The notes beneath the pieces are model-generated. The model had not been told where the DNA came from, did no database searches, and worked only from the letters and a program-made list of their open reading frames with translations. From a virus, in IMG/VR virus record IMGVR_UViG_3300025168_000802, positions 1 to 21,452 of that record: DNA of 21,452 nucleotides; one strand, 5' to 3'. Positions within the stretch are counted from its first letter, which is position 1; each line of letters opens with the position of its first letter. A program made the position numbers and the translations under genes. Shown one piece after another: positions 4,080 to 16,864 of the stretch.

Positions 4080-4295
4080 ATGGAAGAACCAAGAGCTAAA
4101 CACCCTATTCAAACTATAGCTGATTTTAAAATATGGCGAATGGTAGATATGGTTTGGACACAAGATGAATGTGCTAAACACTTAGGATATAAAAGTAGAC
4201 AAAGTGTTGCTAAGTTAGAAACTGGAAGAGCAAAAATAACACCTAGAATTTCTGGATTATTAGAATTACTATCACATAAAAAATTTAATACATGA
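4080..4295 (+). CDS. Cro/CI-type (XRE) HTH transcriptional regulator
   Basis: This 71-residue protein has a single helix-turn-helix domain: TQDECAKHLGYKSRQSVAKLETGRAKITPRISGLLELL (residues 27-64). It matches the lambda-repressor-like pattern 'T-x2-x-x-A-x-x-LG--S-x2-x-V-x-x-E-x-G-R-x-x-P'. The recognition helix is around SRQSVAKLE. There is no C-terminal oligomerisation or autocleavage domain, so it resembles Cro-type or small MT-like regulators. It has its own promoter (P3) and a strong RBS. It is the natural candidate to bind the palindromes at P1 and P2. It overlaps the downstream oxygenase gene by 4 bp (ATGA). Confidence 0.78.
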   Translation: MEEPRAKHPIQTIADFKIWRMVDMVWTQDECAKHLGYKSRQSVAKLETGRAKITPRISGLLELLSHKKFNT

Positions 4296-4864
4296 GCCTA
4301 GCAATACCTCCTATTATGGGAGGCTCTCATGGTGTTGTAAGTGCAGGAGAATTAACTAAATTAGACTGTAAGAAATTAATTAACTTGCATAAGACATCAC
4401 CCCATACAAATGGAAAAGTTCAAACATCATCTAGTGATAATAAAAAAATTGTTTCTATAAGACAAGTTGATGCATGGCGCATACATGAAAATCAATTATG
4501 GGTAGATGAATTATTAGTATCAACAATAAGAACAGTTAATGAAGATGTGTTTCAATACAATCTATCTGGTTTAGTAGAAAGACCACAACTGCTTAGATAC
4601 AATGCAGGTTCAATGGGTTATGATTGGCACACCGATATAGGACAAGGTGATGCTAGAAATAGAAAATTAAGTATGTCTATTATTTTAAATAATGATTATG
4701 AAGGTGGTGAGCTAGAGTTTTTTGGTGATGGAGTAACGAATATTCCTACTCAGAAAGGCGATATAATAGCCTTCAGTAGCTTTATACCCCATAGAGTTAC
4801 TAATATAGTATCTGGTGAGAGATGGGCGATTGTAGCATGGTTCTCTGGACCACAATTTCGCTAA
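4292..4864 (+). CDS. 2OG-Fe(II) oxygenase, PKHD-type hydroxylase
   Basis: This 190-residue protein carries the full set of non-haem iron oxygenase landmarks. LLRYNAGSMGYDWHTDIG (100-117) provides H113 and D115. ELEFFGDG (140-147) forms the core strand. GDIIAFSSFIPHRV (156-169) provides H167, and R177 ten residues later is the expected 2-oxoglutarate salt bridge. This matches the prolyl 4-hydroxylase-like superfamily (PF13640 and PKHD types) common in marine phages. The substrate is unknown; protein prolyl hydroxylation or DNA/nucleotide modification are candidates. The gene is coupled to the HTH regulator by ATGA and is the last plus-strand gene. Its stop overlaps the stop of the converging minus-strand gene. 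Confidence 0.85.
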   Translation: MSLAIPPIMGGSHGVVSAGELTKLDCKKLINLHKTSPHTNGKVQTSSSDNKKIVSIRQVDAWRIHENQLWVDELLVSTIRTVNEDVFQYNLSGLVERPQLLRYNAGSMGYDWHTDIGQGDARNRKLSMSIILNNDYEGGELEFFGDGVTNIPTQKGDIIAFSSFIPHRVTNIVSGERWAIVAWFSGPQFR

Positions 4865-6884: not shown

Positions 6885-9464
6885 TTATCTTGCTGTTGCA
6901 TATTTAAATGGATTAGAACTCATTGATAAGAAGACCCATTCACCACCACTTCCGTTAAATCCGCTTCCAGCAGTACGAAATTTCCAACCATTAGAATAAA
7001 TATCAATTACATCAGTAGTTGCATTACTAGATTCAGCTACATTACGATCTGGATTTAACAAACGTGCGCCTGTTCCATTAAAAGGATTTCTAGATGCGTC
7101 TATGATATACCAAAAGTCGCCACTACGATTATATCTTTTTAACATAATCCATGCAGGTTTATGTCCAGTATAAATAAATTGCCCATTTGTAGAGCCATTT
7201 CCCTTGTATGTCCCTGCTCTTATATATCCATCTATATTTGTAAAACAATAATAAATATAATTATTTGTACTTGCCCAAGTATAATTCTGTTTACAAGTAA
7301 ATATAGAAGAATTAACAGTACCCCATCTACCAGTAAAAGGAGCTTCAGAAGTATTTAATCTCATGCCTGACCCAGCAGAAACACCTTCTGCAAAGTAAGT
7401 ATCCCAGTTATAGGTTGTATCTCTATTTTTAGCTAATATAACTGTGGGTGCTGATGATAATCCATGAGATACAGTTTTATCTCCAGAACCTCCATCACCT
7501 ACTGCTTTAACAATACTAAACCCACCACTAGGGTCTACTTGATGTGTTGATGTTAAATCTCCAGAACCAGAGCTTGTCGTTCCTCCATTAGCCCTCCACA
7601 ACCAACCTACATGACCTCCATCATTATCATCAAAATTAGTATATAGTTTAGTACTTCCTCCAGTAGTAAATCCATCACTACCTATTGCTGATATATCTTG
7701 TCCACTTGTTTGGTCATTTTCAGCGGCATTTGTATTAGTAAATAATCTTTTACCACCATTAGAAGCTATACCTCTTGTAGTATCGTATAGTCTATTAGAA
7801 GAATCATAATCTCTAGCTTTAAACCATATCCAATCAGTTTTAAAACCTACTCCTGTAATAGCACGACCAACAGCATTATTACCTGTCCATATTGTAGCAC
7901 TAAACAATTTCTGTGGAAAATTACTATCAGTTTGTGCAGGGTCTACTGCATCTGCTGTTGGTAGATTGCCAGAACATAGTGCTAAATATCCTTTTGGGTC
8001 GTATTTAAATGTTCCTAAATTTTTATCACCACCACCATTATTACTAGCTCCTGAAATTTCCCCTGTAAAAGTTGGCTCTTGTCCTGCATTTAGTATAGTA
8101 TCATCTCCGTTATATATTTGAGCAGTAAATGTTATTGGATTAGCAGGTGTTGTAGTCCAAGCCCATTGTGGATATGCTCCTGTTTCAGGATTACCAGAAT
8201 TAGGTATAGTACCATTCTTTGCTATCCATGCTTTTCTATTATCACAATCTAAATAATAACTAATAATATCTCCATCAGTAGCAGTAGCAACTCCTGTAGT
8301 TACAGTTGTTAGTGAACCTAATCCTGTTATATTAGCACCACTATTTCCTTGTACTGCTCCACTACCAATGTCATAACGCATAGCCCAGATATCTCCACCA
8401 GTAGTAGCTGAATTTGCTATATTTCCAAGAACAGTAAGACCAGTATAAGGATAACCAGAAACATAATCTTTAATTAACATTTCCCAATACCATTTACCAC
8501 TTGTCACAGCAAAAGAACCAGAAGGATTAGATGCACCACTACCTGTACCAGTAGTTTGTAAATTACCTTCTGATAAAGTAGTATAACTTCCTGCATTTAA
8601 AGGATTCCAAGTAGCAAAATTATTAGTTGGTGAATCAGTAAGTTGTCTAAAAATTTTATGTGAGGCCCAATCATTTCCTTCACCACTTGTATCATCCCCA
8701 AAATTAGAACCATCTTGAAACATTAATAAATGTCCTGCACTCCCCCAAGTAATTCCGCTACTTAAATCCTTGGGAATCCAAACTCCATTTTTTTCTTCTG
8801 AAAAAACAGTAGGTGGATGTGTATAACCATCTACATATGCCCATTGTGCTATGTAACTTTGAATAGGATAGCCATAACCATAATAATCTCCTATTGTCCA
8901 AGCACCAGCGGCAATACCTGAAAATGAACTAAAAGAACCTCTATTATCTGTATTATAACTAGCTTCTGTCCCATTAATAAAAAATTTTAATTTTTCACTA
9001 TTTGTTCCATTATCAAGGTCTGCTTGTATATGAATATTGTACCATGCAGAAGTATCACGAAATAAATTATCTGTACTTAAAACTATAGCATTACTATTTG
9101 TGTTTACAAGCATAAGAGCATCACCTGCTGTATTACCTGCTGTAGGAGAAGAAAATTTAAGTTCCATTAAATTAGTAGCACTTGTACCACTTCTAGGGGT
9201 AAAAATATCTAATGGTCTAGCACTTGTAATTGGATTAGTTCCTTCTATTGCTGACCTTTTAATCCAAAAGTTTAAAGTAAAATGCACACTAGAATCAACA
9301 GTACCAAATGTTTTTGTTAATCTACTACTATTTGCTGAAGTAGAGTTTGCTGAAAATCTGCAACTATTAGGTATAGAATGTGTATAGAAATCACCACCAC
9401 CTCCACCACCTGATACTACTCCTGATGCTCCTGCTCTTGGGCTAGTTTCTTGTAGTTGACTCAT
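6885..9464 (-). CDS. Large lectin-like tail fibre / receptor-binding protein
   Basis: This 859-residue Ser/Gly/Thr/Asn-rich protein has several beta-sandwich modules. A polyglycine linker (about 19-24) is followed by a LamG/concanavalin-A-like module (about 35-235, with FTLNFWIKRS and WYNIHIQADL). Next are a junction with DDTSGEGNDW and SPTNNFATWNPL (258-289), and a SPRY-like module (about 290-455, FAVTSGKWYWEMLIK and DCDNRKAWIAKNG). The last two modules (about 515-660 and 665-859) have the form 'K-DWIWFKARDYDSSNRLYDTTRG' and end in GEWVFLSMSSNPFKYATAR. That final signature is common in marine phage fibres (DUF7483-like). It probably binds host surface glycans. It lies downstream of the tip protein, where a host-range determinant is expected. 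Confidence 0.75.
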   Translation of the reverse strand: MSQLQETSPRAGASGVVSGGGGGGDFYTHSIPNSCRFSANSTSANSSRLTKTFGTVDSSVHFTLNFWIKRSAIEGTNPITSARPLDIFTPRSGTSATNLMELKFSSPTAGNTAGDALMLVNTNSNAIVLSTDNLFRDTSAWYNIHIQADLDNGTNSEKLKFFINGTEASYNTDNRGSFSSFSGIAAGAWTIGDYYGYGYPIQSYIAQWAYVDGYTHPPTVFSEEKNGVWIPKDLSSGITWGSAGHLLMFQDGSNFGDDTSGEGNDWASHKIFRQLTDSPTNNFATWNPLNAGSYTTLSEGNLQTTGTGSGASNPSGSFAVTSGKWYWEMLIKDYVSGYPYTGLTVLGNIANSATTGGDIWAMRYDIGSGAVQGNSGANITGLGSLTTVTTGVATATDGDIISYYLDCDNRKAWIAKNGTIPNSGNPETGAYPQWAWTTTPANPITFTAQIYNGDDTILNAGQEPTFTGEISGASNNGGGDKNLGTFKYDPKGYLALCSGNLPTADAVDPAQTDSNFPQKLFSATIWTGNNAVGRAITGVGFKTDWIWFKARDYDSSNRLYDTTRGIASNGGKRLFTNTNAAENDQTSGQDISAIGSDGFTTGGSTKLYTNFDDNDGGHVGWLWRANGGTTSSGSGDLTSTHQVDPSGGFSIVKAVGDGGSGDKTVSHGLSSAPTVILAKNRDTTYNWDTYFAEGVSAGSGMRLNTSEAPFTGRWGTVNSSIFTCKQNYTWASTNNYIYYCFTNIDGYIRAGTYKGNGSTNGQFIYTGHKPAWIMLKRYNRSGDFWYIIDASRNPFNGTGARLLNPDRNVAESSNATTDVIDIYSNGWKFRTAGSGFNGSGGEWVFLSMSSNPFKYATAR

Positions 9465-10121: not shown

Positions 10122-12749
10122 CTATAAATTTGTACTTGTAACAGATAAAGCACTAACTTGAATGTTGTATGCTGTATCTTCTGTAGATAATTCTGCTTTA
10201 AATTTAAACCCTCTAGCAAATGCTTCATTGGATTGCAATAGTTTATAAGGCGACCAAGTAGCACCTCCACTTGCAGGGTCATCATTTGTACTTGCATAAT
10301 AAGTTTCAACATTGCAAACTGCCGCATCTCCTGTACCATCAAAGTCAGCCCATGTATCAATATTAGCCGCTCTTGAATCAACTAAATCTAATATATTGAC
10401 AATAGCTGAAGTTACTGATGCTTGCAAACGTATTCTTGTAGGACTACTTTTGTCTAATTTAGTTGCAAATTCATATATTCCTGTTGTATTTACATTTCCT
10501 AAGAAATCAAAATCAGCAATTAAGTCAAAATTTGCAACATCATCTAAGTCTACTGAAGAGGTTAATTGCAATTTATTACTAGAAACCATAGTTCTAGTTT
10601 TAGTTCCTGTAAAGTTAGGGCTTTCAGTAATAGTTGCGGCATTTGTGTAAGCTAAGATAGTTTCATTTTCAGATACTACTCCCACAGCAGTTGGTGAATA
10701 ATTACCACTACTATCAAAGAATTTAGCTAAATAAGTTCCTGCTCTTAAAGGTAATGTTTTATTTGTTGCTGAGCCTGCTACTCTGCCATCAACTAAAATA
10801 GAAGTAATCCATGTAGCACTACTTGTTGCAGGAGTCCATCTAATCTCTACACCACCACCAATAGTAACATCTAAGTCTGTTGACTTATCCCAAGCTAAAA
10901 CTCCTAGCCCTCCTCCTGTTATCAAAGTAAAGTTTGTTACATTTGCAGGAGCGGCAGAAAGACCAGATAAAGAAAAAACTGTTGTAACATATTCAGAAAC
11001 TTTACCTAATATATTTTTTGCTCTCACTCTAATATTATAAACTCCAGCAGGCAAATCTAATACTTCTGCTTCTGTTGCTACAGTATTTCCTGCTGATATA
11101 AAAACTGAGTCTGTAGATAGTTTATATTCTACTTGATACATATCAACTTGACTATCATTAGCGGCAACCCAAGTAATTTTCATTCTTGATGCTACTCTTG
11201 CATTATCTCTAGTTGTAAATAAATTTTCAGATACTTGTAAATTAGTCGGTGTTAATACAACAAAAGCACTTGGCAAATTAGTATTAGGTGCATCTGCCAT
11301 TGCTTGTTGCTCTGTAGTAGACCAAGAATAACTACTTGCCGCATATTCTGTTAAACCCATATTAACAAGTAATCCGTTAGGAGTAGTAGCAAAACCCCAT
11401 GAAGTAACTCTAAATTCTTTATTAGACCAACCATATCGAGTGTTACTCACTTTGATAATATCGTTTATATCTGCAATGAAACAAGTGCATTTAAACACAC
11501 CTTGAATATGAACTGGTTGTCTTGCCGCATATAATTGTATTTTTGCAATTCTTTGAGCCATTGAAGATGATGTCGTAAATGGCAAACTGAAATCTCTATA
11601 TATAGTTGCTCCATTATCTTCTGCTATAAAACTTGCTACTTCTAAAGCAGGATAGTCTGTTTCTTCCCAATCTGACTCTGATGATATAAATGTTCCTTTA
11701 ATTGCATTAAAAGTATCTCTTCGGCTTAATCTTGATTGAACAGTTAGCTCTCCTACCATATCACTTTCATTAATAGATAGTACCGAAGTTCCTGTTCCTG
11801 CGGCAAATACTTTATATAAACCATTACTATATGATAAAACTCCTGACATAGATGTTAATAATTCATTAAGTATTTCTCTTGGTTTTGATTCTGTACTTAT
11901 CATTCCATGAGCTTCATATCTATTTTCTGTACCACCACCTGATAAAGATTGTGATTCATCACAGATATTTGCGGCAGTTACTACAGTATCATTATCAATT
12001 TTACCTGCTGAAACTTTTAACCCTAAATCACTTATAAGATAATCTCTTATTATCATAGCAGGGTTAGATGAAAATGCTGTTTGACTTGTTCTTGTGTCTA
12101 ATATTTTTTTACCTTTAATAACTGCTTTAACATTAGGCACTCCACTATAAATATTTTGCTCAAATCTAAATCTAAAATATATATATGCCATACCAGATAA
12201 GGTATGTGCTGAAGTCCACTTGCCACCACTCTCACTTATTAAATCTGAATTTGCACTTTGTGTATCAGTACCTAAAGCTGTTTGTATTCTTAAATAAGGA
12301 TTACCTTTATAATACTCACTACCAGATGCTTCTGTTATATTACCACTACCATCAAGCATAGAAGGTGTAATTAGATTGCCATTTACATAAAACTCTTTAA
12401 ATTCTGTTATTTCATGTGAGGCTACCACTATGACCATATGCAAATAAGTATTAATAGCTGAATCACCTGCATCTCCGTTACCTGCTGTAGTTTCTAGGAA
12501 TACTATTGGTCCACCTACTTGGATTTCTCCATATACAACTTTTCTTGCAGTAATTGGTTGTCTAAAGTTTTGTTTTCTATCTTGAGCAGTAACAGAAAAA
12601 TTAGGTGCATCTGGTTTTTTAGGTTTTGGTGCTAATGCCATAGATGCAAAAGCTAGAGCAACAGAAATTACCATTCCTACATAACCACCTTGTATATAAC
12701 CTGTAACTGCGGCTACTACAATATTAAGTACATCTGATGCACCACCCAT
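10122..12749 (-). CDS. gpJ / GTA megatron-like central tip (host specificity) protein
   Basis: This protein is 875 residues from the chosen ATG at 12749. That start overlaps the previous stop as TAATG and has GGAAGG upstream; a TTG at 12776 would add nine residues. The hydrophobic N-terminus (about 3-38) precedes the KPKKPDAPNF segment and the ARKVVYGEIQVGGPIV motif typical of lambda J-like tip proteins. The hub part (to about 480) contains the FKEFYVNG and IIRDYLISDLGL signatures. A fibronectin type III domain follows (about 495-595), then beta-rich modules at the C-terminus. It should form the central tail tip and help contact the host. It is shorter than lambda J (1132 residues). Host recognition probably also involves the downstream fibre. 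Confidence 0.8.
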   Translation of the reverse strand: MGGASDVLNIVVAAVTGYIQGGYVGMVISVALAFASMALAPKPKKPDAPNFSVTAQDRKQNFRQPITARKVVYGEIQVGGPIVFLETTAGNGDAGDSAINTYLHMVIVVASHEITEFKEFYVNGNLITPSMLDGSGNITEASGSEYYKGNPYLRIQTALGTDTQSANSDLISESGGKWTSAHTLSGMAYIYFRFRFEQNIYSGVPNVKAVIKGKKILDTRTSQTAFSSNPAMIIRDYLISDLGLKVSAGKIDNDTVVTAANICDESQSLSGGGTENRYEAHGMISTESKPREILNELLTSMSGVLSYSNGLYKVFAAGTGTSVLSINESDMVGELTVQSRLSRRDTFNAIKGTFISSESDWEETDYPALEVASFIAEDNGATIYRDFSLPFTTSSSMAQRIAKIQLYAARQPVHIQGVFKCTCFIADINDIIKVSNTRYGWSNKEFRVTSWGFATTPNGLLVNMGLTEYAASSYSWSTTEQQAMADAPNTNLPSAFVVLTPTNLQVSENLFTTRDNARVASRMKITWVAANDSQVDMYQVEYKLSTDSVFISAGNTVATEAEVLDLPAGVYNIRVRAKNILGKVSEYVTTVFSLSGLSAAPANVTNFTLITGGGLGVLAWDKSTDLDVTIGGGVEIRWTPATSSATWITSILVDGRVAGSATNKTLPLRAGTYLAKFFDSSGNYSPTAVGVVSENETILAYTNAATITESPNFTGTKTRTMVSSNKLQLTSSVDLDDVANFDLIADFDFLGNVNTTGIYEFATKLDKSSPTRIRLQASVTSAIVNILDLVDSRAANIDTWADFDGTGDAAVCNVETYYASTNDDPASGGATWSPYKLLQSNEAFARGFKFKAELSTEDTAYNIQVSALSVTSTNL

Positions 12750-13231
12750 TATCCAACCTTCCAAGCTATTTGACAATCTACTCTAGGCAAATCTAAATAT
12801 CCTTTATTAGTTACAAATCTAGCATCATCTCCTGTTAATATACCTACAGTTAAATTAGTTTCATTGCTAGTTGCATCTAAATAATTTAATTTTAAAGTTC
12901 CTACAATATCTCCTCTTTGTGCAAAATTAATATGTACTCTAGGAAAATGATAATCCCAAAAATTTATTATATAATTATTAAGTGTGTCTTTAGGTTTATA
13001 AGAAATATTATGTTCTTTAAAATATTTAATACCATATTTATATGCGTTAATAGGATTGTTAAACATTCCTATGTGTTTTATTCCAAAATCTTTATTGGTG
13101 TATTTAGAAACTACATCTACAGCATAGCAAACACAATCTGATACACCCCATTGAAATTTTCTAGGCTTATCAATCTCTTCACAAAGAGTTATTTGCCAAT
13201 CTTCTAGCTTGTGCGTACTTCGTTGCCCCAT
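12749..13231 (-). CDS. NlpC/P60-like tail tip peptidase (GTA gp14 / DUF6950-like)
   Basis: This 160-residue protein has the start pattern of phage tail cell-wall peptidase homologues: KLEDWQITLCEEI, then FQWGVSDCVCYAVD (26-39). The cysteine of the S-D-C motif is the likely nucleophile, and it sits at the start of a helix as in NlpC/P60 enzymes. A possible later His is in YHFPRVHINFAQRGDIV, which also carries the GD pair usual in this family. It would open the peptidoglycan locally during DNA entry. The gene order hub, peptidase, megatron is that of the Rhodobacter GTA. The central part is divergent and Lys/Asn-rich. It overlaps the hub gene by 28 bp. Confidence 0.68.
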   Translation of the reverse strand: MGQRSTHKLEDWQITLCEEIDKPRKFQWGVSDCVCYAVDVVSKYTNKDFGIKHIGMFNNPINAYKYGIKYFKEHNISYKPKDTLNNYIINFWDYHFPRVHINFAQRGDIVGTLKLNYLDATSNETNLTVGILTGDDARFVTNKGYLDLPRVDCQIAWKVG

Positions 13232-14115
13232 AATATTTCATCATCCTGTAGTGCCGCTACATATTCTAAACCTTTATCATTAGGAAAATCTATAGCTTGG
13301 TCTTGTGGTGTATATCTTTTTATTTTTGGATTTTCTAATGTTACTAATTCACTTTCACAATTAACAGTAACAGTTGATGTGTCGCCTTTATCTTTTAATG
13401 TCATAACATCCATAAAACCAGAAAAAACAATATATGGGTCTGAAACTATAATACTAGGATTGTTAAATAACTCTCCTCCCATTCCTGTATGATTTGTGCA
13501 GTAATAATATAAATAAGAAGGAAAAGTTGCAGGTGCTACCCAAGTTGCTGTTGCTCCTGCTGTTCCTGAAGTTCCTGATTCTGTCCAAGATGCTGTAGTA
13601 TATTGAGAACCTCCTCCTCTTGTTCCATCAACTGTTGTAGATAATCTAAATTGATGTCCTGCATTACTAGAATCACTAACATCAAATATATATTTATTAC
13701 CTGCATAAATATCTAAATCTGGTGTTAATAAATTCTCAATGTAATATTTACCTCCACTTGCAGTAACCTTAAAAGTTGTAGCAATTTCTGGTTCTGGAAC
13801 CATAAAAGCTGTTTTAACTTTTACAGGTCTGCCATTATAGGCTTCTGCTAAAGCTATTGATATAATAGAAGAACTCATGCCTGATAAAGTAACAGAGAAA
13901 CCATTTGCTCTCATCTCTAAACTTTCAGCACTTTGGTCAATATTCATTAATGTTCCTGCACCTGTATATGTAACTCCACCTACTGATATATCTCCATAAC
14001 CAGTCCATAGGTTAACATCTCCACTATCAAATTCTGCTTCTACTAATACTGCTGAACGCAAAGTATCGGCTCTAGCATAAGCTCTAAATGCGGCAGTTGT
14101 TGTTCTATTAGCCAT
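13204..14115 (-). CDS. Baseplate hub protein (DUF2163/GTA gp13-like) with inserted cupredoxin-like domain
   Basis: This 303-residue protein is assigned mainly by position (GTA gp13 slot) and by outer segments typical of these hub proteins: LVEAEFDSGDVNLWTGYGDI (24-43), GFSVTLSGM (72-80), AYNGRPVKVKTAFM (92-105) and, after an interruption, IVFSGFMDVMTLKDKGD (229-245) with PKIKRYTPQDQ (263-273). Residues about 115-215 are inserted and look like a cupredoxin. A Greek-key-type strand set carries H154 (NAGHQF), then C206, H209 and M212 in YYYCTNHTGMGG. Those are all four type 1 copper ligands with C-x2-H-x2-M spacing. The outer domain joins the tail tube to the tip. The start overlaps the upstream stop (TAATG). 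Confidence 0.75.
   Translation of the reverse strand: MANRTTTAAFRAYARADTLRSAVLVEAEFDSGDVNLWTGYGDISVGGVTYTGAGTLMNIDQSAESLEMRANGFSVTLSGMSSSIISIALAEAYNGRPVKVKTAFMVPEPEIATTFKVTASGGKYYIENLLTPDLDIYAGNKYIFDVSDSSNAGHQFRLSTTVDGTRGGGSQYTTASWTESGTSGTAGATATWVAPATFPSYLYYYCTNHTGMGGELFNNPSIIVSDPYIVFSGFMDVMTLKDKGDTSTVTVNCESELVTLENPKIKRYTPQDQAIDFPNDKGLEYVAALQDDEILWGNEVRTS
13471..13773 (-). other. Cupredoxin-like domain inside the hub gene
   Basis: This covers hub residues about 115-215. The pattern is FKVTASGGKYYIENLL, DIYAGNKYIFDVSD, then NAGHQF (H154), a Gly/Thr/Ser loop, and a final YLYYYCTNHTGMGGEL (C206, H209, M212). The ligand order His, Cys, His, Met and the C-x2-H-x2-M spacing are those of amicyanin-type type 1 copper proteins. 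Similar 'YYYC-x2-H-x-GMGG' domains occur in marine phage structural proteins, to my recollection. Whether copper is bound is unknown. Confidence 0.7.
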
Positions 14116-14741
14116 TATAAAACTTCCCTAACAGCAAAAGTAATTCCGTAAGTAGATACTGCATTTGTATCCCAATTAGTTTCACTAGCTGATAATCTAA
14201 AAACACCTTTTGTATCTGCTACAGTTATTGCTAAATTATTTGTAGGACTTTCTCTTAATGCAGGTTCAATAGATAAAGTAAAGTTTCCTGAACCATCTGA
14301 ATTAGAATCTGCTGTTACCATATGCAATCTTGATGCTGTACCTGTTCCTAATTGTATATAATCACCTGCTTTTAAATATCCTGTTTTACTATTTGGCGCA
14401 CCATCACACACTAAAGTATTACCTGTTTGGTCTGCTCCATTGACTAATGGTGTTCCTGCACTTGTTCCTGCTGTACCTAAAGCAACTCTAGCATCCCAAT
14501 CTCCCAAGAACATACTGCCATACTGCCCTCTAAGGCTTACTAAAAAAGCTACAAAAGCTCTAGCATTAGCAGTACGCATGGGAGGCATAGTAACCTCGCA
14601 CTCCCACCATTCTCCTGTATACTGGTACACTTGTTGCTCTCCAGTAAATACACTTGTTGATGTGCCTATAATTCTTTTTATTCTCCAAGATGTGCCACTA
14701 GGTGCAACAGTTGCAGGAATAGTTACTGGATATGTTGTCAT
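14115..14741 (-). CDS. Distal tail protein (GTA gp12-like position)
   Basis: This 208-residue beta-rich protein has N-terminal strands (TSWRIKRIIGTSTSVFTG) leading into EQQVYQYTGEWWECEVTMPPM (35-55) and an 'ARAFVAFLVSLRGQYGSMFLGDWD' element (60-83). The 'F-T-x-EQQVY ... G-x-W--x-x-x-x-PPM' pattern recurs in phage tail proteins placed between tape measure and hub. Distal tail proteins form the hexameric ring joining the tube to the baseplate. It overlaps the tape measure gene by 4 bp (ATGA) and the hub by a TAATG junction. The family assignment rests on position as much as sequence. Confidence 0.65.
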   Translation of the reverse strand: MTTYPVTIPATVAPSGTSWRIKRIIGTSTSVFTGEQQVYQYTGEWWECEVTMPPMRTANARAFVAFLVSLRGQYGSMFLGDWDARVALGTAGTSAGTPLVNGADQTGNTLVCDGAPNSKTGYLKAGDYIQLGTGTASRLHMVTADSNSDGSGNFTLSIEPALRESPTNNLAITVADTKGVFRLSASETNWDTNAVSTYGITFAVREVL

Positions 14742-16864
14742 GAGAACGTATCAGCCATTTGACCACCCCTCTTTTTAGCATCCATAACAGCATTTACAGA
14801 TTCTTGTTTAAATTGTGGTAATAAAGCAACCATCTCTGCTCTTACTGTTTGTGATACTCCTGTTTCTATATTTATAGTTTGATTAACTGTTGCTCCACCA
14901 CCACCTGAATTTTTAAGACTTCTGTTTGTAAATATACCTCCTGATGTGTGTGGAACAAATAATTCTGGTCCTTTTTCTCCTACTAATGACGGAGTATTAG
15001 GATTGACACTTCCTCCGTTAGCAAATCCAAATATATTACCTTGACCACCAGAGCTATTAGGATTAAATCCTCCACCACCTCCTCCAAAGAATGAGCTACC
15101 AATAGATATTATCTTTCCTAAATCAAATCCTCCTCCACCACTACTACCACCACCACCAAAAGTTTTCATTATAGCTTGTTTTGCTTGTAGTTTAAGTAAG
15201 TCAGAAATAATATCTCTAATTATGCTTTTAAGACCATCTCTAAAGCCTTTCCAACCTTCTGTCATTCCTGCTAAAGCATCTGCTGTGCTATCAGCTAAGA
15301 AATCTGTTACTCTTTCTATTCCTTCAAGAGCAATCTTGCCCTCTTCAGTTGATTCTATCATAGCTACTTTTAATCTACCCATAGATAAAGCATACTCATC
15401 ATTAGTTATCTCACCTAAAGCTAAAGCCTCTCTTAAAAAATGTATTTCTTCTGCATAATCTTTAGTTACCAACCCTAATTCTTGTAATACTTTTTGTCTT
15501 TCATCATAATTTTCTTGTTCTTGTTCAGATTGAATATTTACCTGTACTTGTGCATCTTCTAAATCTCTGTAAGCATCTGCCATAGCTTGCATTAAATCTA
15601 TGCTCTCTTGTTGACTTACTAAATTTGGAAGATTCTCATTAACAAGGTCTGCACCTAATATTTTTGGTTTCTTTTTTTCTTCTACTTTCGTACTTTTAAC
15701 AACTATATCATCAATTTTTTCAAATTTATCATCTTCAAATAAATCATCATAAAGCTCTCTTACTTTTTTCATAGCTACTTCAAGTAACTCCATTTTTTCT
15801 GCTACTACTAATGCTCCAAGAGCTATAAGTCCAAGAGGTGATTTTTTTGCTATCATATTGAAAGCAAGCATTGCACCTTTTGCAGTAGTAATACCTTTAG
15901 CCAAAGTAAAAAATCCTGCGCCTAATGTAATTACTAATAAACCTAATTTTAAAGCAACAAAAGCTGTAGCTATTCTTAGTAAAGCATCCCATTCTTCATA
16001 AACAAAATTTATTGCGTCTGCTAAAGCATCCATTGCAAATACTAAACCATCACTTATAGCTTCTGCGTATCCTTGTAATTTTTCTGTATTATTAGCTAAA
16101 GTTGTATCTAAATCTTTAAAATGTCCTTTTAATGCGGCAAAAAATCCTGCATCATTAATTGCTCTTTGGAAATTAAAGACTTTATCCCCAATCATACTTA
16201 AATTACCAGAAAAAGTGTTAGCTAATTTATCTGTAATTCCTTCATTATCTGCGGCAAATTGCTCTAAAGCTAATTTTGTATCAGCTAAAGATACTTTTGT
16301 TCCTGCCGCAAAGCCTAACATAGCAGTAACACCTTTATCTCTAAAGAGGTCTGCCGCTCCTATTCCTGCACTCAATGACCTTTGAATTTGTTGAGATGTT
16401 GTTTCAAAATCTAGTCCTGTTGCGGCGGCAATAGTACCAGTCATTTCTAATAATTCACCTAATTCTACTGCATCATCTGCTACAGATAATAAACTTCCTG
16501 AACCTGCTTGAATTTCTTTTAAGCTAAATGGTACTTTAGATGCAAATTTAGACATTGTTTCAAAGGCTTTTCCACCTTCTTCTGCTGATTTAAATAAAGT
16601 TTCAAATCTAATTTGCAAACTTTCTATATCATTACCTACTTTAACTAAAGACCTTATTCCTGCTCCTACTCCTAGACCTATTAAAGCTCCTTTAAGACTA
16701 AAAATAGCTTTACCCACACCTTGCATTTGTGTTTTAACCTTCATGAAATGTCTATTCATTAAGGTTGTTGATTGTTTACTGGCATTTGATGCTTGTTTTA
16801 AACCTCTTTTGAGGTCTTTCATGTCAGCTTCTATGCGTACTATGAGTTTATCTACAGTTGCCAT
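14738..16864 (-). CDS. Tape measure protein
   Basis: This 708-residue protein has the classic layout: a helical N-terminus (ADMKDLKRGLKQASNASKQS, about 14-33), a hydrophobic glycine-rich segment (about 52-74), and the conserved LQIRFETLFKSAEEGGKAFE (83-102) and VPFSLKEIQAG (111-121) motifs. A second hydrophobic region follows (about 295-330). Next are long Glu/Gln/Lys coiled coils and a polyglycine/serine linker leading to a C-terminal SLVGEKGPELFVPH motif. At about 1.5 angstrom per residue the tail would be near 106 nm (inference). The start overlaps the stop of the frameshifted chaperone frame (TAATG). No lytic peptidase motif is visible, consistent with the separate NlpC/P60-like gene. Confidence 0.88.
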   Translation of the reverse strand: MATVDKLIVRIEADMKDLKRGLKQASNASKQSTTLMNRHFMKVKTQMQGVGKAIFSLKGALIGLGVGAGIRSLVKVGNDIESLQIRFETLFKSAEEGGKAFETMSKFASKVPFSLKEIQAGSGSLLSVADDAVELGELLEMTGTIAAATGLDFETTSQQIQRSLSAGIGAADLFRDKGVTAMLGFAAGTKVSLADTKLALEQFAADNEGITDKLANTFSGNLSMIGDKVFNFQRAINDAGFFAALKGHFKDLDTTLANNTEKLQGYAEAISDGLVFAMDALADAINFVYEEWDALLRIATAFVALKLGLLVITLGAGFFTLAKGITTAKGAMLAFNMIAKKSPLGLIALGALVVAEKMELLEVAMKKVRELYDDLFEDDKFEKIDDIVVKSTKVEEKKKPKILGADLVNENLPNLVSQQESIDLMQAMADAYRDLEDAQVQVNIQSEQEQENYDERQKVLQELGLVTKDYAEEIHFLREALALGEITNDEYALSMGRLKVAMIESTEEGKIALEGIERVTDFLADSTADALAGMTEGWKGFRDGLKSIIRDIISDLLKLQAKQAIMKTFGGGGSSGGGGFDLGKIISIGSSFFGGGGGGFNPNSSGGQGNIFGFANGGSVNPNTPSLVGEKGPELFVPHTSGGIFTNRSLKNSGGGGATVNQTINIETGVSQTVRAEMVALLPQFKQESVNAVMDAKKRGGQMADTFS

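Follow-up and report, generated by a model that had tools for sequence, protein, structure and literature searches.

The tail hub protein encoded on a 21,452-base linear virus record (the window, meaning the whole stretch of DNA analysed) carries an inserted cupredoxin-like domain of ~110 aa (residues about 106–217; 13465..13800, minus strand). This segment is a module with a predicted fold of its own and conserved putative copper ligands; it is under purifying selection, entered the hub lineage once, and has lost its ligands elsewhere on an all-or-none basis. We regard the chances as about even that it is an accessory cupredoxin module of marine virions, acquired once, which binds copper mainly to stiffen an exposed contact module. 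The preliminary description of this DNA had proposed a cupredoxin-like domain with a full type 1 ligand set in the hub, and this was supported by structure prediction (AlphaFold2), fold comparison (Foldseek) and residue conservation, with profile alignment (hhalign) pointing the same way less firmly.

Tail gene cluster and hub gene

The minus strand of the window contains a siphovirus tail module comprising the genes for the tape measure protein (14738..16864; PF20155, E 5e-6, under the Pfam cut-off, and PHROG tape measure families), the distal tail protein Dit (14115..14741; PHROG 1302, E 5e-42), the hub (13204..14115), a DUF6950 protein adjoining the hub (12749..13231; PF22262, E 8e-17) and a J/megatron-type central tail protein (10122..12776; PHROG 5616, E 1e-90; PHROG 31, E 2e-76). 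The gene order is the same in RcGTA and roseophage R4C, and the DUF6950 protein probably occupies the place of the RcGTA/lambda tail-tip peptidase. The hub gene is intact, with an unbroken translation of 303 aa, and its assignment is based on an attachment domain that matches PHROG 2048 (tail protein; E 1e-35) and on the synteny Dit, hub, peptidase, megatron/J; RcGTA g13, the R4C hub and lambda gpL occupy the same place in the gene order and have the same attachment domain. No tRNA genes were found in the window, nor was there a DNA-level match of the whole window to known phages. Further genes encode an 859 aa virion protein with DUF7483 at its C-terminus (6885-9464, minus strand; E 1.4e-76) and, on the plus strand, two proteins resembling 2OG-Fe(II) oxygenases, as judged by eye (532-1143 and 4292-4864); similar oxygenase-like genes are also located near module-bearing genes in P-HM1, MED4-213 and S-TIM4.

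Hub relatives were collected by a search of IMG/VR, which returned 136 encoded proteins, 80 of which were kept for comparison. The insert was present in seven of them (L001-L007) and missing from 71 (L010-L080). The closest hubs from isolates were those of the Roseobacter phages CRP-6, CRP-821 and CRP-406, the last being annotated as minor tail protein L. In the alignment, the insert follows '...VKTAFM' and precedes '...VSDPYIVFSGFMDV', hub sequence being aligned on either side, and it separates the N-terminal part of the attachment domain (residues 1-105; 13801..14115) from its C-terminal part (residues 218-303, FSGFMDV...WGN; 13207..13464), which lacks a four-Cys cluster. The preliminary description had placed the insert at residues 115-215 (13471-13773), within a DUF2163-like domain that was interrupted and then resumed. 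Both the insert and the interruption proved real, as the flanks align, while comparison with insert-free relatives widened the boundaries to those given above; the interrupted domain is the hub attachment domain, PF09931 giving only a weak match under its cut-off (E 0.081).

Insert-bearing hubs formed a single clade with a support of 100/100 in a tree computed without the insert, so that one acquisition suffices. The G+C content of the insert did not differ from that of the remainder of the hub gene (0.349 vs 0.350), and its dN/dS was ~0.2 in most pairs, similar to that of the hub, indicating purifying selection. Flanked by hub sequence, confined to one clade, ordinary in G+C content and conserved at this dN/dS, the insert is thus an established, selected domain. 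Four PHROGs (27200, 693, 30742 and 677), all of them marine phage tail or structural families, matched the insert segment alone. The hub residue C253 (13357-13359) was found in all insert-bearing hubs vs 1 of 20 insert-free ones. Some insert-free relatives of 349-369 aa have, behind a Gly-rich tail, a C-terminal domain that looks like the Hint/intein type (GCF...DTFxxxNxVVHNK), as in L062 (3998-5044; same in L067 and L068), L077 (3956-5062) and L079 (2366-3472).

In the hubs of RcGTA, R4C and lambda (gpL), four Cys residues bind a [4Fe-4S] cluster, which according to the R4C paper is essential for tail assembly and activity. A metal centre at the tail tip thus has a precedent, which had been overlooked in the earlier statement that no need for redox copper is known in tail proteins. 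An iron-sulfur site was considered for the window hub and rejected, because its only Cys residues are C206 and C253. Among the insert-free relatives, 60 of 66 are without Cys and the remainder have a single one, so this hub lineage does without an iron-sulfur cluster. RcGTA and R4C hubs resemble the window hub in carrying an inserted accessory domain, an oligosaccharide-binding domain, but it is located elsewhere in the protein, and the window hub is devoid of the C-terminal iron-sulfur and oligosaccharide-binding part. The copper-type module is situated elsewhere in the hub chain, not at the place of the cluster.

Conservation of the putative copper ligands

Translation of the hub gene placed the four proposed ligand residues where they had been described, with H154 at 13654..13656, C206, the sole Cys of the domain, at 13498..13500, H209 at 13489..13491 and M212, the putative axial ligand, at 13480..13482 (all minus strand). 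They have the order and C-x2-H spacing of a type 1 (blue) copper site. Given the composition, a C-x2-H-x2-M motif would be expected by chance ~0.0015 times per 300 aa, and a chance motif was ruled out by conservation of the ligands across relatives. All four residues were retained in the seven insert-bearing hubs, and loss of the ligands in most homologues that keep the insert, which would have spoken against the original proposal, was not seen. Among 215 unique domain segments, His, Cys, His and Met were the four most conserved columns, one separate clade being without ligands; both H154 and M212 were 99.5% conserved among 213 domains, and 79 of 81 representative ligand-bearing domains had a single Cys.

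Some of the searches had used the C-x2-H motif, and the samples were split to counter this bias. Loci found by N-terminal patterns only comprised 45 complete domains, 44 of which had all of H, C, H and M, the sole exception reading DCHL, whereas the C-x2-H pattern omitting H154 and Met recovered domains with all four residues in 72 of 72 cases. These two unbiased samples speak against ligand conservation as an artefact of motif-based searching. Of the roles suggested earlier, metal-triggered locking, sensing of an envelope metal and a frozen non-metal fold would all look alike in sequence. A frozen relic appears unlikely in this hub lineage, where selection maintains the ligands, although ligand-free members exist elsewhere.

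A set of two His with one Cys and one Met can bind several soft metals. The module might, for example, hold Zn, Cd, Ni or Ag, or act as a Cu(I)-only scavenger that shields the virion from copper or thiol damage. The marine setting and the chemical suitability of the H, C, H, M set speak for such a use, which we nevertheless consider very improbable, as copper cupredoxins have this ligand order and this C-x2-H spacing, a C-x2-4-H rule having been described for them (PMC4059628).

Predicted fold and relation to cupredoxins

An AlphaFold2 model of the insert domain, built with 40 related sequences, showed a beta-sandwich with a mean pLDDT of 89.6 and a pTM of 0.82; a model of the whole hub was poor (pLDDT 53). 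In the domain model, C206 closes one strand, H209 and M212 are located in the loop to the next strand and H154 immediately precedes a strand, an arrangement resembling that in cupredoxins. When the model was compared with the PDB using Foldseek, ranks 1-20 were all cupredoxins, including nitrite reductase, rusticyanin, AcoP and small laccase (E 6e-4 to 4e-3), with moderate TM-scores (TMq) of 0.46-0.59. Amicyanin and auracyanin were found below rank 20, and later ranks included unrelated beta proteins. The similarity to cupredoxins is thus clear but moderate, and a predicted fold of another kind, which would have contradicted the initial proposal, was not obtained. The fold search also returned giant-virus 'beta-sandwich proteins' (Marseillevirus LCMAC201, Pithovirus LCPAC302/304), the match spanning most of the length of the Pithovirus proteins.

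Searches of the insert as a single sequence in Pfam and the PDB gave no useful match, and the domain stayed below the cut-offs of the Pfam copper families. A family profile matched mostly copper proteins in the PDB, if weakly (E 0.03 and above), and a broader profile gave still weaker results. Profile comparison by hhalign with aligned marine-genome proteins of the plastocyanin and pseudoazurin type gave probabilities of 86% (E 5e-6) and 76% (E 2.4e-5), and H154, C206 and H209 coincided with real ligands in the 76% alignment; the control, the hub minus its insert, reached 0.1%.

The insert is like amicyanin, plastocyanin, pseudoazurin, rusticyanin and AcoP in its model fold and the order His...Cys-x2-His-x2-Met, but it differs from them in that it sits within a virion protein, has Pro or Gln after the first His, contains a long, conserved Gly/Thr-rich loop and has no known redox partner. 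Electron-transfer cupredoxins usually have Asn or Ser after the first His, although exceptions exist; in this hub, the position is occupied by Gln155, and the family consensus is Pro. At the first ligand, the insert-family consensus is His-Pro-(Phe/Leu), which recalls the HPF motif in the type 1 copper domain of multicopper oxidases; unlike these enzymes, the insert is a single small domain without the His-x-His motifs of type 2/3 copper. With neither Asn/Ser at this position nor a redox partner gene recognised among the window proteins scanned (Pfam, PHROG), the insert departs from a typical electron-transfer cupredoxin. A redox-active site that transfers or senses electrons at the tail tip, for instance as a trigger on contact with a respiring or photosynthetic envelope, would be in keeping with the four-ligand type 1 set and its strict axial Met, with the electron-transfer cupredoxins among the best fold matches and with the iron-sulfur cluster in hubs of the RcGTA/lambda gpL kind. 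Given the missing partner gene, the Gln/Pro and a ligand-free clade in which the virion module dispenses with the site, we judge this reading improbable.

The module in other marine phages and in cells

The preliminary description had mentioned related YYYC-x2-H domains in structural proteins of marine phages, and such domains were indeed recovered. A tblastn search with the insert identified 24 phage records, a search with the family consensus 284 and one with the N-terminal part alone 263, all of them marine. The carriers are cyanophages, pelagiphages, OM43 (Methylophilales) phages and other marine phages, and the proteins concerned include tail fibres, the baseplate wedge protein gp7, connectors, large virion structural proteins and the fibres of T7-like phages, some with two copies of the module. 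Among predicted viral structures, 67 matched the domain model with E-values of 0.001 or lower; those with names were mainly cyanophage proteins, several of them annotated as 'tail fibre' or 'baseplate wedge tail fiber connector'. The modules in structural proteins of cyanophages and pelagiphages, for example S-TIM5, P-SSM2 (tail fibres), Baldr and Melnitz, belong to the same family and share the ligands, with 38-52% identity in the best tblastn matches, but their carrier proteins differ from the hub, and the records assign no function to them.

A scan of GTDB genomes revealed 55 loci with the domain, many of which are on short contigs and perhaps viral. At 12 of these loci, mostly from SAR86 and Woeseiaceae, the protein has a lipobox-like N-terminus (ACGGGGG start), with the domain usually near the C-terminus. 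Lipoprotein loci with all four ligands are L203, L212, L213, L215, L219, L226, L227, L228, L236, L239, L240 and L241, and in L239 two module-bearing lipoprotein genes are adjacent. These marine bacterial lipoproteins suggest that cells, too, use this domain at an exposed surface.

The same distribution could reflect docking, in which a copper-loaded phage exploits copper-handling or redox proteins on the host surface. This would be a copper version of the 'Ferrojan horse', a use of tail iron by phages that has been proposed in the literature. In favour of docking are the fact that tail tips and fibres bear all the ligands of a high-affinity copper site, the restriction of phage occurrences to marine phages and the presence of the domain in SAR86 and Woeseiaceae lipoproteins. 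However, the module occurs in many different virion proteins and in phages of unlike hosts, which gives no hint of a single receptor, and we hold docking to be a rather unlikely explanation. The presence of the module on many virion proteins of unlike phages fits better with a common physical job, that of a stable and exposed contact module, than with pathway-specific redox chemistry.

Members without the ligand set

A clade of cyanophage proteins (Syn33_035, S-TIM4 ORF35; L326, L330, L333-L412), with 80 IMG/VR loci and 18 representatives, has no Cys and no metal ligand except for the first His in S-TIM4, yet keeps the module in cyanophage structural proteins. PSS2_gp080 (L323, 3992-4330) is a free-standing copy of 112 aa encoded beside tape-measure genes, in which three of the four ligands (both His and the Cys) are lost. 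A tree computed without the ligand columns needed only two changes of ligand state, although it was poorly resolved (80 columns). Judging from these sequences, the cyanophage clade has lost the ligand set as a whole, in an all-or-none manner. An acidic 'D..DDG' motif lies in the loop near the site in 17 of the 18 ligand-free representatives vs 0 of 81 ligand-bearing ones. The acidic loop of this clade, DGTxGNSDDGTE, resembles a calcium-binding loop. This is no more than a hint that copper may have been swapped for calcium here, in one clade and perhaps one event.

The ligand-free members bear on the notion of a non-metal adhesion module, in which H, C, H and M would be part of the structural core or a relic and the conserved loops would bind molecules on the host surface. 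Three observations are in its favour: virion proteins of a whole cyanophage clade retain the module although the ligand set is gone, the free-standing copy PSS2_gp080 has lost three of the four residues, and much of what is conserved between the two clades falls outside the site. Conversely, the ligands are the most conserved columns and are lost as a set rather than as single residues, and the retention of a lone Cys in almost all copies would be difficult to account for unless it is a ligand. Adhesion without metal seems unlikely to us.

Proposed role of the module

Four such residues, arranged as in cupredoxins on a predicted cupredoxin fold, are most simply read as a copper-binding site. 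We propose that the module is mobile among marine phage virions and entered a hairpin of the attachment domain once. Each domain would bind one copper ion, so that a tail tip would hold three, provided that the hub is trimeric as in RcGTA. Cytosolic copper is kept very low, so the metal would probably be picked up outside the cell, after release of the virion. In the least certain step, copper would tie the C-terminal loop (C206, H209 and M212) to the H154 strand, rather than serve electron transfer, and the stiffened module would form an exposed, surface-contact part of the tail tip. The inserted oligosaccharide-binding domain of RcGTA and R4C hubs, which is thought to play an accessory contact role, provides a precedent for such a domain on a hub. 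Two considerations count against stiffening: an ion with a structural role alone might permit more ligand variation than was observed, and the strict axial Met could point to a redox role.

Recurrence of the four-ligand module in the virions of many marine phages suggests that their tails carry copper. A wider proposition is that copper-bearing tails are general in marine phages. A type 1 copper module, shuffled among the hubs, baseplates and fibres of cyano-, pelagi- and roseophage-like viruses, would then make adsorption or ejection depend on copper at some step, and the present hub lineage would have a copper module where its relatives have an iron-sulfur cluster. This is put forward tentatively, as something that is possible but doubtful.

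Significance

Cupredoxins and phage hubs are both known, and public records already contain the module, labelled for instance as 'virion structural protein'. A literature search that covered open-access articles, few subscription papers and no bioRxiv preprints found no paper describing a cupredoxin domain in phage virions, and none in the open-access literature joined cupredoxins with phage baseplates, tail fibres or cyanophage structure. The question can be addressed directly, given that it concerns one small domain and that cultured phages (S-TIM5, P-SSM2, P-HM1 and Baldr) are available. Should the domains hold copper, the tails of many ocean phages would bear a trace metal, and phage tails would possess a metal centre of a second kind, next to iron and iron-sulfur sites. 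Copper could then affect virion stability, adsorption and the holding of dissolved copper in seawater.
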